This document shows positions 6,520-31,200 of a stretch of DNA of 32,930 bases, one piece after another. Numbering within the stretch: position 1 is the first letter of the stretch; each line of letters starts with the position of its first letter. The position numbers and the translations under genes are program-made. The DNA comes from an archaeon (GTDB taxonomy: Archaea > Nanobdellota > Nanobdellia > Woesearchaeales > GW2011-AR9). The stretch lies in the NCBI GenBank assembly GCA_023265925.1, contig JAHFSD010000014.1:1-32930 (forward strand), in the 5' to 3' direction. The notes beneath the pieces are model-generated. The model saw only the letters and a program-made list of their open reading frames with translations, ran no database searches and was not told the DNA's origin.

Positions 6520-6607
6520 GCCCCAGTGGCTTAGCCCGGTTAGAGCAGTCGGCTGTTAACAACAGAAAGATACCGACAGATCACCAGTTCAAATCTGGTC
6601 TGGGGCG
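6520..6607 (+). tRNA. tRNA-Asn(GTT), 13-nt intron at 37/38 (6559-6571)
   Basis: Acceptor gccccag/ctggggc; anticodon stem gtcgg/ccgac; spliced loop CTGTTAA; T-arm accag-ttcaaat-ctggt; TATA 'atttataaag' about 30 nt upstream. Confidence 0.88.
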
Positions 6608-14310: not shown

Positions 14311-14530
14311 GGGCCTGTGGTCTAGTGGCTATCTCTTTAAAAGAGACCATTGATGACGTCTCGTTGACGAAAACTCGTTAAATTCGTTGTTTTCAGAGTC
14401 GAGAAGAACCCCGGTTCGAAAGCAAGTTACACTATGCAAGTCGTACTCAGGTGGGATATTCCTCCCTGTGGTCGGAAATCCCACGACACTGGCAAAATAA
14501 TGTAACAGAACGAAAGTCCGGGCAGGCCCA
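14311..14530 (+). tRNA. tRNA-Val(GAC) with three introns: 14331-14352 (20/21, 22 nt), 14370-14398 (37/38, 29 nt), 14421-14516 (59/60, 96 nt)
   Basis: Spliced: GGGCCTG TG GTCTAGTGGCTATGAC G TCTCG TTGACGT CGAGA AGAAC CCCGG TTCGAAT CCGGG CAGGCCC A; each junction lies in a bulge-helix-bulge-like fold; TATA 'tttataaaa' about 32 nt upstream. Confidence 0.88.
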
Positions 14531-27280: not shown

Positions 27281-27473
27281 GGGCCTGTGGTCTAGCGGCT
27301 ATCTTTGGGCGAAGAAGACTGCAGATGACAACTCCCTTACACGGAGTAGATCCCCGGTTCGAACGCAAGTTACACTAGGCAAGTCGTACTCAGGTGGGAT
27401 ATTCCTCCCTGTGGTCGGAAATCCCACGACACTGGCAAAATAATGTAACAGAACGAAAGTCCGGGCAGGCCCA
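27281..27473 (+). tRNA. tRNA-Val(TAC) with two introns: 27301-27324 (20/21, 24 nt) and 27364-27459 (59/60, 96 nt)
   Basis: Spliced: GGGCCTG TG GTCTAGCGGCTATGAC A ACTCC CTTACAC GGAGT AGATC CCCGG TTCGAAT CCGGG CAGGCCC A; TATA 'tttttaaag' about 30 nt upstream. Confidence 0.88.
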
Positions 27474-28191: not shown

Positions 28192-29286
28192 TTATAATTC
28201 AACCATAACCTTCTTTTCTTTCAAATTGACCTGCTTGATTTTCCTTAACTTCCGTAATTCCGCCGCAATCTCTTCCCAGCTTTTCTGCAATCTCCATTGT
28301 TTTACCGTATCCAGCAGTTTCTGCAGGGCCGCATAGTGTTCATAAACCGCTTCTCCTTTCCTGGTATTGTCAGCAAGGCTTTGTTCATACCCGGCAATGG
28401 CTTGCTCCTGCTGCTGAATGGTTTGCTGCCAGGCCGTAATTTTCTTCTCATAGGGAGAAATTTTTGGAAAGGGTGTCAAGGTGTCAATCGCCTCATTGTA
28501 GGTAACCGTCTGGTGAGCCGGGTTCTTGCTTTTCAGGGTGCTTTTCAGGGGAAAAGGGGTTATTTCTCCATCATAGAGATTACCATGAGGCTGCTTAATG
28601 TTGTCCAGAAACTTCTGAACAGCCCGCTGAAGCGACTTTACGTCGGATGAAATTAGCGCGGCCGGAATGGTATTCTTGTCCACCCCGGCAACGGCACAAA
28701 GCTCTTCGGCATACAATCCTCCTAAACCAAGATCAGTAGCCAGCGCGGTCACCAGATTGCGCTTCTCGCTGCGCTGCAGGAGGGCGGACAATTCCGCTTC
28801 CGTAAGTGCCTTCCAATCCGCCCCTGGCTTGGGAAAGTGGTATTTTCCGCCCCGTTTAATGGTACGGTCTTTCCATTCCTGCTGTTCCAGAAGAAGCAGG
28901 ATCCTATACTCTTTATCCGTCACCACCAGATTTCCTTTGGAGAACAGCTCAATAATAACTTGATATTTCTCTTTTTTTTCCACGTCCATCACCACGATGC
29001 GTTCCGACTCTTTTTGCGACAACGATTTCAGGATTCCTCCTTCCAGATGCCGGCGCAATTGCCGGCAGAATTCCGTGGGTATTGCCGCAGATTCTTTTTT
29101 TTTCGTCAGGCAGAGAAATTTTCCCGGCACGAGTCGTAAAAATTGTTTTCCCTGGTCCTGAAGATGAAGCTGGAACAGAAATTCTTTGTCAAACTGATAG
29201 ATTCCGGCAATTTTTCCTTTGACTAATACCTGTAGTTCATTCACCAGCGCGGCCAATTCCAGGGAAGAGATGGAAGTTTTGGGCAT
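28192..29286 (-). CDS. NFACT-N (RqcH/Rqc2/FbpA-like) protein lacking the C-terminal NFACT-R domain
   Basis: 'SSLELAALVNELQVLVKGKIAGIYQFDKEFLFQLHL...FCRQLRRHLEGGILKSLSQKESERIVVMDV...ELFSKGNLVVTDKEYRIL'; ends 'NLKEKKVMVEL*'. Confidence 0.85.
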   Translation of the reverse strand: MPKTSISSLELAALVNELQVLVKGKIAGIYQFDKEFLFQLHLQDQGKQFLRLVPGKFLCLTKKKESAAIPTEFCRQLRRHLEGGILKSLSQKESERIVVMDVEKKEKYQVIIELFSKGNLVVTDKEYRILLLLEQQEWKDRTIKRGGKYHFPKPGADWKALTEAELSALLQRSEKRNLVTALATDLGLGGLYAEELCAVAGVDKNTIPAALISSDVKSLQRAVQKFLDNIKQPHGNLYDGEITPFPLKSTLKSKNPAHQTVTYNEAIDTLTPFPKISPYEKKITAWQQTIQQQEQAIAGYEQSLADNTRKGEAVYEHYAALQKLLDTVKQWRLQKSWEEIAAELRKLRKIKQVNLKEKKVMVEL

Positions 29287-29299
29287 GGGGTAATAAAAA

Positions 29300-29454
29300 A
29301 GCGCCCGGAGGGATAGTCGAAGTTCCGCTTCTCCTTTAGTTCCTACGGAACTTACTCGAACCCTCGAATGCTCGCTGTCTTCTGTTCATTGCCATGATGG
29401 CTCATCCTTGCGGACGACTGCAGGCGAGTACCTTTGCCGCTTGGTGACGGGCGC
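29300..29454 (-). tRNA. tRNA-Cys(GCA) with two introns: 29377-29417 (37/38, 41 nt) and 29314-29354 (59/60, 41 nt)
   Basis: Minus-strand spliced: GCGCCCG TC ACCAAGCGGCAAAGGT A CTCGC CTGCAGA GCGAG CATTC GAGGG TTCGAGT CCCTC CGGGCGC T; U73 fits Cys. Confidence 0.88.
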
Positions 29455-30858: not shown

Positions 30859-31056
30859 AGTAATACTTTAGCTTCCTGAAGTGAAGCTCTACCGTCTTCT
30901 CGGCAAGTAACCTATGCAAGTTACTCAGGTGGGGTACTCGCTCCGCTCGACCCCACGATAATGATAGTGGATGGGACAACCCCCCGTCTGCTTGCTACAG
31001 CACCCGAGGAGGCTCGACCTGAGGATGGTAGAGCTTCACAAAGCTAAAGTATTACT
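30859..31056 (+). ncRNA. Candidate structured ncRNA (or IR-bounded element) with long paired termini and a core shared with tRNA-Val T-loop introns
   Basis: gtaatactttagctt...aagctaaagtattac and gtgaagctctacc...ggtagagcttcac nested stems; 'tatttaaag' TATA at 30836-30844; core 'GCAAGTAACCTATGCAAGTTACTCAGGTGGG..CCCACGA'. Confidence 0.65.
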
Positions 31057-31071: not shown

Positions 31072-31200
31072 TGGACCTGGGGAGACAGTCAAAGCTCCGC
31101 TGTTCGGTCAGTTCCTGCGGAACTTATTTGAACTCCCGACCCCCAGCTTAGAAGGCTTGCACAATACTTTGGTGCCCTATCCAGGCTAGGCTACAGGTCC
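31072..31200 (-). tRNA. tRNA-Arg(TCT) with two introns: 31157-31169 (29/30, 13 nt) and 31086-31126 (59/60, 41 nt)
   Basis: Minus-strand spliced: GGACCTG TA GCCTAGCCTGGATAGGGC A CCAGC CTTCTAA GCTGG GGGTC GGGAG TTCAAAT CTCCC CAGGTCC A; TATA 'tttataaag' about 30 nt upstream. Confidence 0.9.

Follow-up and report, generated by a model that had tools for sequence, protein, structure and literature searches.

Structure and Detection of the tRNA-Cys Gene

We are confident that positions 29454 to 29300, on the minus strand of the window (the whole 32,930-nt stretch of archaeal DNA analyzed here), hold the cell's tRNA-Cys gene, with two introns that would be cut out by the splicing endonuclease before the exons are joined into a 73-nt tRNA-Cys with U73 (Table 1). 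Transcription, cleavage and ligation are steps that we infer. Read on the minus strand, the gene showed an acceptor stem GCGCCCG/CGGGCGC followed by T73, a D-arm ACC/GGT with A14 and G18G19, an anticodon arm CTCGC CTGCAG^(41 nt)^A GCGAG, a variable region CATTC and a T-arm GAGGG TTCGAG^(41 nt)^T CCCTC. The spliced cloverleaf has the conserved T8, A14, G18G19, T33, G53, TTC, A58 and C61. Exon 3 does not encode CCA, and a T run starts at U73. The anticodon GCA and U73 were also seen in syntenic relatives. Cloverleaf and relatives agree with an earlier note on this DNA, which had proposed a minus-strand tRNA-Cys(GCA) with U73 after removal of both inserts. Its placement of two 41-nt introns at 37/38 and 59/60 also stands, as the gene in relatives is uninterrupted, carries the 37/38 intron alone, or carries both.

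The gene was detected neither by ARAGORN nor by the Rfam tRNA model, which is expected because an insert interrupts the T loop. Our custom intron-tolerant tRNA finder gave it a score of 35.0, with no match at 26 or above in a Markov-simulated control genome of 1.2 Mb. This match is far beyond chance. An intact tRNA-Cys elsewhere, which the earlier note had named as evidence against its reading, was looked for with the same intron-tolerant search, and no second tRNA-Cys was found in the 86%-complete assembly, whose missing part could hold one. A cysteinyl-tRNA synthetase is present (CysRS, PF01406 on contig C16, E 3.1e-90).

Table 1. Coordinates of the tRNA-Cys gene, its predicted splice elements and other features of the window.
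Feature	Position	Strand	Details and basis
tRNA-Asn(GTT), 13-nt intron at 37/38	6520..6607	+	Finder
Interrupted tRNA, finder call Val(GAC), 96-nt long-family T-loop intron	14311..14530	+	Finder
Interrupted tRNA, finder call Val(TAC), 96-nt long-family T-loop intron	27281..27473	+	D-arm and anticodon-arm splice sites provisional
Presumed rqcH-like (NFACT) gene, synteny anchor, downstream of tRNA-Cys	28192..29286	-	Homologues in 56/60 relatives
tRNA-Cys(GCA) gene, two introns	29300..29454	-	155 nt primary, 73 nt mature; sequence, finder score, syntenic relatives
tRNA-Cys exon 1, positions 1-37 (acceptor 5', D-arm, anticodon stem 5', loop up to G37)	29418..29454	-	Sequence, relatives
tRNA-Cys anticodon GCA (34-36)	29419..29421	-	Sequence
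tRNA-Cys intron 1, 37/38, 41 nt	29377..29417	-	Alignment with relatives
tRNA-Cys exon 2, positions 38-59 (A38, anticodon stem 3', CATTC, T-stem 5', TTCGAG)	29355..29376	-	Sequence, relatives
tRNA-Cys intron 2, 59/60 (T loop), 41 nt	29314..29354	-	Uninterrupted relatives; homologous introns elsewhere
Intron 2, inner helix 5' strand AAGTTCCG	29346..29353	-	8/8 pairs with 29320-29327; largely conserved in homologues
Intron 2, inner helix 3' strand CGGAACTT	29320..29327	-	Pairing; homologues
Intron 2, CGAC, intron strand of central helix	29316..29319	-	3/4 pairs with UUCG (54-57, 29357-29360)
tRNA-Cys exon 3 (U60, T-stem 3', acceptor 3', U73)	29300..29313	-	Sequence
Partial long-family copy outside recognised tRNAs	30903-30973	+	One of five
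tRNA-Arg(UCU), two predicted introns (13 nt at 29/30, 41 nt at 59/60)	31072..31200	-	T-loop intron a sister copy of the Cys one

Intron Load of the Genome

The assembly comprises 57 contigs (1,204,582 nt) and is 85.9% complete. The first finder returned 37 tRNAs at scores of at least 26, and an extended version, in which stem introns and longer T-loop introns were allowed, returned 39 at scores of at least 25; both gave none in the simulated genome. Thirty-seven of the 39 tRNA genes are interrupted, by about 72 introns, the splice sites being provisional for several tRNAs (type II, D-loop introns) with a finder that does not allow introns in every stem. At least two introns are present in 26 genes, and 25 genes have one in the T loop. 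The load differs within the family, uninterrupted tRNAs being 4 of 9 in 394 kb of relative G010 and 0 of 9 in 394 kb of relative G016. Also, two tRNA-Tyr(GTA) genes were seen (L046/L088 region, G000:C28:22374-22444, and G000:C45:21068-21228), one of them interrupted and the other not, and the uninterrupted gene could be acquired or a contaminant.

Bulge-Helix-Bulge Motifs

Each of the two tRNA-Cys introns shows a 4-bp helix flanked by one 3-nt bulge on either strand, in a relaxed form with three of four pairs. For intron 1, this central helix is CUGC/GAAG at the 37/38 offset, and there is no continuous inner helix; in intron 2, the mismatch is U54 opposite C, and the inner helix pairs throughout. 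In the T-loop intron, the elements described in the earlier note were all recovered at their places: an 8-bp helix (AAGTTCCG/CGGAACTT) and two bulges (AGT, TAT). A cut after the second bulge base does yield TTCGAGT.

The single-sequence minimum-energy fold gave another arrangement, and the predicted bulge-helix-bulge structure rests on comparison. Over seven homologues of the T-loop intron, 86.6% of cells were paired in this structure, with a covariation of 0.345 vs 0.184 for shuffles. Among six pairs with double changes, four lie in the T-stem, which belongs to the tRNA and not to the intron, and two in the intron motif. RNAalifold proposed, unprompted, almost the same structure, with A58 paired with the intron and the bulge slightly shifted.

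The same register recurs in other tRNAs of the genome. For 23 T-loop introns, UUCR at 54-57 pairs with the four intron bases that precede the 3' bulge; at least three of the four pairs form at exactly the 59/60 register in 22 of them, with a mean of 3.52 pairs, and no other offset exceeds 2.48. The analogous helix of anticodon-loop introns (32-35) has at least three of four pairs at 37/38 in 22 of 28 cases, the introns in both tests having been placed beforehand by the finder, whose scoring ignores the helix. As the UUCR with which its 3' end pairs is nearly invariant, a T-loop intron would bring its own half of the splice motif and be portable, fitting almost any tRNA.

Intron Copies Shared Between tRNAs

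The T-loop intron of tRNA-Cys is identical at 32 of 41 positions (z = 8.6) to that of tRNA-Arg(UCU), a gene 1.6 kb from it within the window. It also resembles the insert of a tRNA-Pro(GGG) on contig C57 (z 6.0), the other T-loop introns then listed giving z from -1.9 to 1.0. Among relatives, it matches 36 of 41 positions in a tRNA-Gln of G002 (z 10.5) and is homologous to the tRNA-Cys T-loop introns of G014 and G020. Taken together, these homologues (Arg, Pro, relatives' Cys, Gln) reach z of 4.6-10.5, a range that none of 2000 shuffles attained. Judged by this likeness, the intron has moved between tRNAs in the lineage, since homologous copies occupy Cys, Arg(UCU), Pro(GGG) and the Gln of a relative, and such T-loop introns would have been copied from tRNA to tRNA. 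The direction and mechanism of the spread we infer; a Y1 (IS200/IS605) transposase as mobiliser was searched for and none was found.

Could the splicing motif itself have imposed this likeness by convergence across Cys, Arg, Pro and Gln, with no transposition? The intron ends are indeed constrained by UUCR pairing and by the bulges, but the likeness extends through the unpaired interior (GAGAAGCGGA) with z of at least 6, and the other T-loop introns just mentioned, under the same constraint in the same genome, are unlike the Cys intron. We consider convergence very improbable and keep movement between tRNAs as the preferred reading. More broadly, tRNA introns appear, from their sequences, to have spread through this genome, because nearly all tRNA genes are interrupted, several of them by copies of the same insert.

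A second and longer T-loop intron family (about 65-140 nt) joins at least 11 tRNAs of this genome and has relatives in 16 of the 60 genomes searched, this one counted. Five partial copies lie outside recognised tRNAs, one in the window and four on contigs C5, C27, C28 and C39, and in each of them the part present is the 5' two-thirds of the element. The motif was not found in viral contigs. In tRNA-Ala(TGC) (L062, G000:C44:12096-12301), an intron of this family sits in the anticodon loop and not in the T loop, which means that the family is not limited to one site. Two other loci are worth describing. At L246 (G000:C27:13844-13922), the 3' end of tRNA-Thr(CGT) is duplicated, with a partial intron copy in inverted orientation next to it, as if an insertion had doubled the T-arm. 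At L055 (G000:C37:3259-3603), only a few bases separate a tRNA-Lys from a tRNA-Asp, and the T-loop introns of the two, ~90 nt long, are very similar.

tRNA-Cys of the Relatives

The loci of relatives were gathered by a search with the protein of the downstream gene, which we take to be rqcH-like (NFACT; a family name read off the sequence and not from a domain search), together with a search that used the tRNA-Cys itself as query, and the finder was then run on them. Most of the resulting tRNA-Cys series, though not all of it, comes from the syntenic rqcH-like site. Uninterrupted genes were found beside rqcH (L115, L127, L128, L140) and at L235. The 37/38 intron is alone at L119 and L133 (beside rqcH) and at L228, and the T-loop intron is alone at L236. 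Both introns are present at L116, L121-L124, L129, L136 and L139 (beside rqcH), as well as at L218, L220, L224, L229 and L232. A D-loop intron was seen beside rqcH at L118, L130 and L134, and the finder gave no match beside rqcH in some relatives, e.g., L117 and L125. The inserts are thus missing at the same site from the orthologous tRNA-Cys of some relatives. By hand count, the predicted spliced tRNA-Cys and its uninterrupted counterpart in G013 (L235) differ at 8 of 73 positions; two of these eight changes compensate each other within the anticodon stem.

The relatives also fix the T-loop cut. Their uninterrupted genes read TTCGAGTC in the T loop (TTCGAGTCCC at greater length). In the interrupted homologues, the base after G59 is variable and a T precedes the T-stem, and in nearly all T-loop-interrupted tRNA-Cys of relatives the 3' exon begins with U60. 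We therefore set the cut at G59^U60.

Relative G030 (L227/L254) has two tRNA-Cys copies in tandem, one uninterrupted and the other a 3'-half remnant in which the T-loop intron survives, and the pair may record a step of intron loss. Such an arrangement, together with the completeness of our assembly, is what might suggest that the gene of the window is a decayed pseudogene, the working intact copy lying in the 14% of the genome that the assembly lacks. Yet all stems are intact after removal of the inserts, many syntenic relatives have both introns at the same positions, the pairing of the T-loop intron is kept across tRNAs, and the same argument would make pseudogenes of 37 of the 39 tRNAs; we hold decay to be highly unlikely. 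Equally small is the chance that a working gene is cut at 58/59 or 60/61: all three cuts give a seven-base T loop starting with TTCGA, and the shifted bulge and paired A58 of RNAalifold point the same way, but a cut at 58/59 would yield TTCGAAT and not the TTCGAGTC of uninterrupted relatives, U60 is assigned to the 3' side by the variable base after G59 and the T before the T-stem, and the pairing register peaks at 59/60. A working tRNA-Cys cut at 59/60 is the reading retained below.

A homologue of intron 1, of 38-45 nt, is present in 10 of 10 aligned relatives. A pattern resembling GATGAGCY...RGCRATGA is kept across them (alignment A1), beyond the apparent needs of splicing, and a kink-turn or another role is possible. 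A guide-RNA role, considered for the GATGA motifs, was not adopted, with no matching second box and little covariation in the fold alignment.

Splicing Machinery

One splicing endonuclease gene was found, on contig C53, encoding 197 aa with PF02778 and PF01974. A search of the genome gave no second match to E 10, and phmmer no paralogue. No beta subunit gene was found by these searches, which a minimal crenarchaeal-type beta could escape. The protein retains the acidic loop (VDDEGD), which recurs with slight changes in the aligned relatives, and a single endonuclease gene is present in nearly all of the 117 genomes of the class. In G065, there is a second, weaker endonuclease match, whose 161-aa product has the acidic loop and shows weak similarity to known endonuclease subunits, the beta chains of 3IEY and 2ZYZ among them; the alpha of the same genome is without the loop. 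Because the loop is kept in relatives, and in G065 is absent from alpha and present in the putative beta, the sequences suggest that the C53 enzyme, which is of alpha type, forms a homotetramer. RtcB is encoded as well, its gene being divided between the ends of two contigs.

With these components, the gene would be transcribed with both introns in place and each exon-intron junction would fold into a motif of the bulge-helix-bulge kind. The endonuclease, encoded by the alpha gene, would cut each bulge 3' of its second base, and the exons would be joined, most likely by RtcB.

Comparison With Known Systems

Marck and Grosjean, in 2003, reportedly placed archaeal bulge-helix-bulge tRNA introns at 37/38 and at non-canonical positions including 59/60. 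Fujishima and colleagues are said to have described tRNA intron transposition in Thermoproteales in 2010. What we describe belongs to a known kind, with an ordinary mechanism in an extraordinary setting. As in other archaeal introns of this type, which occupy the canonical 37/38 and non-canonical sites including 59/60 (PMC4090602), we find both positions, the bulge-helix-bulge logic, lengths under 100 nt and two introns per gene. The lineage is different, however, being archaeal by its genes and probably DPANN/Woesearchaeales judged by gene content and genome size, and the T loop is interrupted in 25 of its 39 tRNAs. We found no earlier description of such tRNA introns for this lineage in our literature search.

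In Thermoproteales, the intron transposition outlined in the summaries that PMC4090602 and PMC4033280 contain concerns another lineage, whereas here there are two T-loop families, of which the longer (about 65-140 nt) is also represented by partial copies that lie outside tRNA genes. With 71 introns spread over 46 tRNA genes, Pyrobaculum calidifontis has the highest number among the complete genomes assessed (PMC8450103). In three intron-rich Asgard genomes (Atabeyarchaeia, Freyarchaeia), 92-95% of tRNA genes are interrupted, more than half by multiple introns (PMC11291895). The 37 of 39 found here are alike in this respect, but in another lineage, with a genome of 1.2 Mb and an apparently alpha-only endonuclease. 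The (alpha-beta)2 endonuclease of Nanoarchaeum equitans (3IEY) is the best PDB match of the alpha subunit. Unlike in N. equitans, no beta gene was found here, and the acidic VDDEGD loop, shortened in the N. equitans alpha, is kept.

We put forward only tentatively, and as rather doubtful, the wider proposal of a lineage of small archaea with ~72 introns in 39 tRNAs, many of them non-canonical and relaxed and removed by an alpha-only homotetramer, in which the T-loop introns are mobile families that use the near-invariant UUCR as landing and splice site in any tRNA and also exist as partial copies elsewhere. To a specialist, the points of interest would be an endonuclease that is apparently alpha-only and T-loop introns that are mobile. 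The alpha4-type endonuclease is described as narrow in specificity, and among known enzymes only the (alpha-beta)2 and epsilon2 types are described as efficient on relaxed motifs (PMC6379350). This published rule, which ties relaxed non-canonical introns to those two types, can be put directly to the test in this genome, where the one endonuclease found looks alpha4-like. Genomes of this sort can look translation-deficient though their tRNAs are present, as ARAGORN without introns finds 3 tRNAs in this genome vs at least 39 by the intron-tolerant search. Also, relatives with the same syntenic tRNA, interrupted or not, offer a natural series for the study of intron gain, movement and loss.
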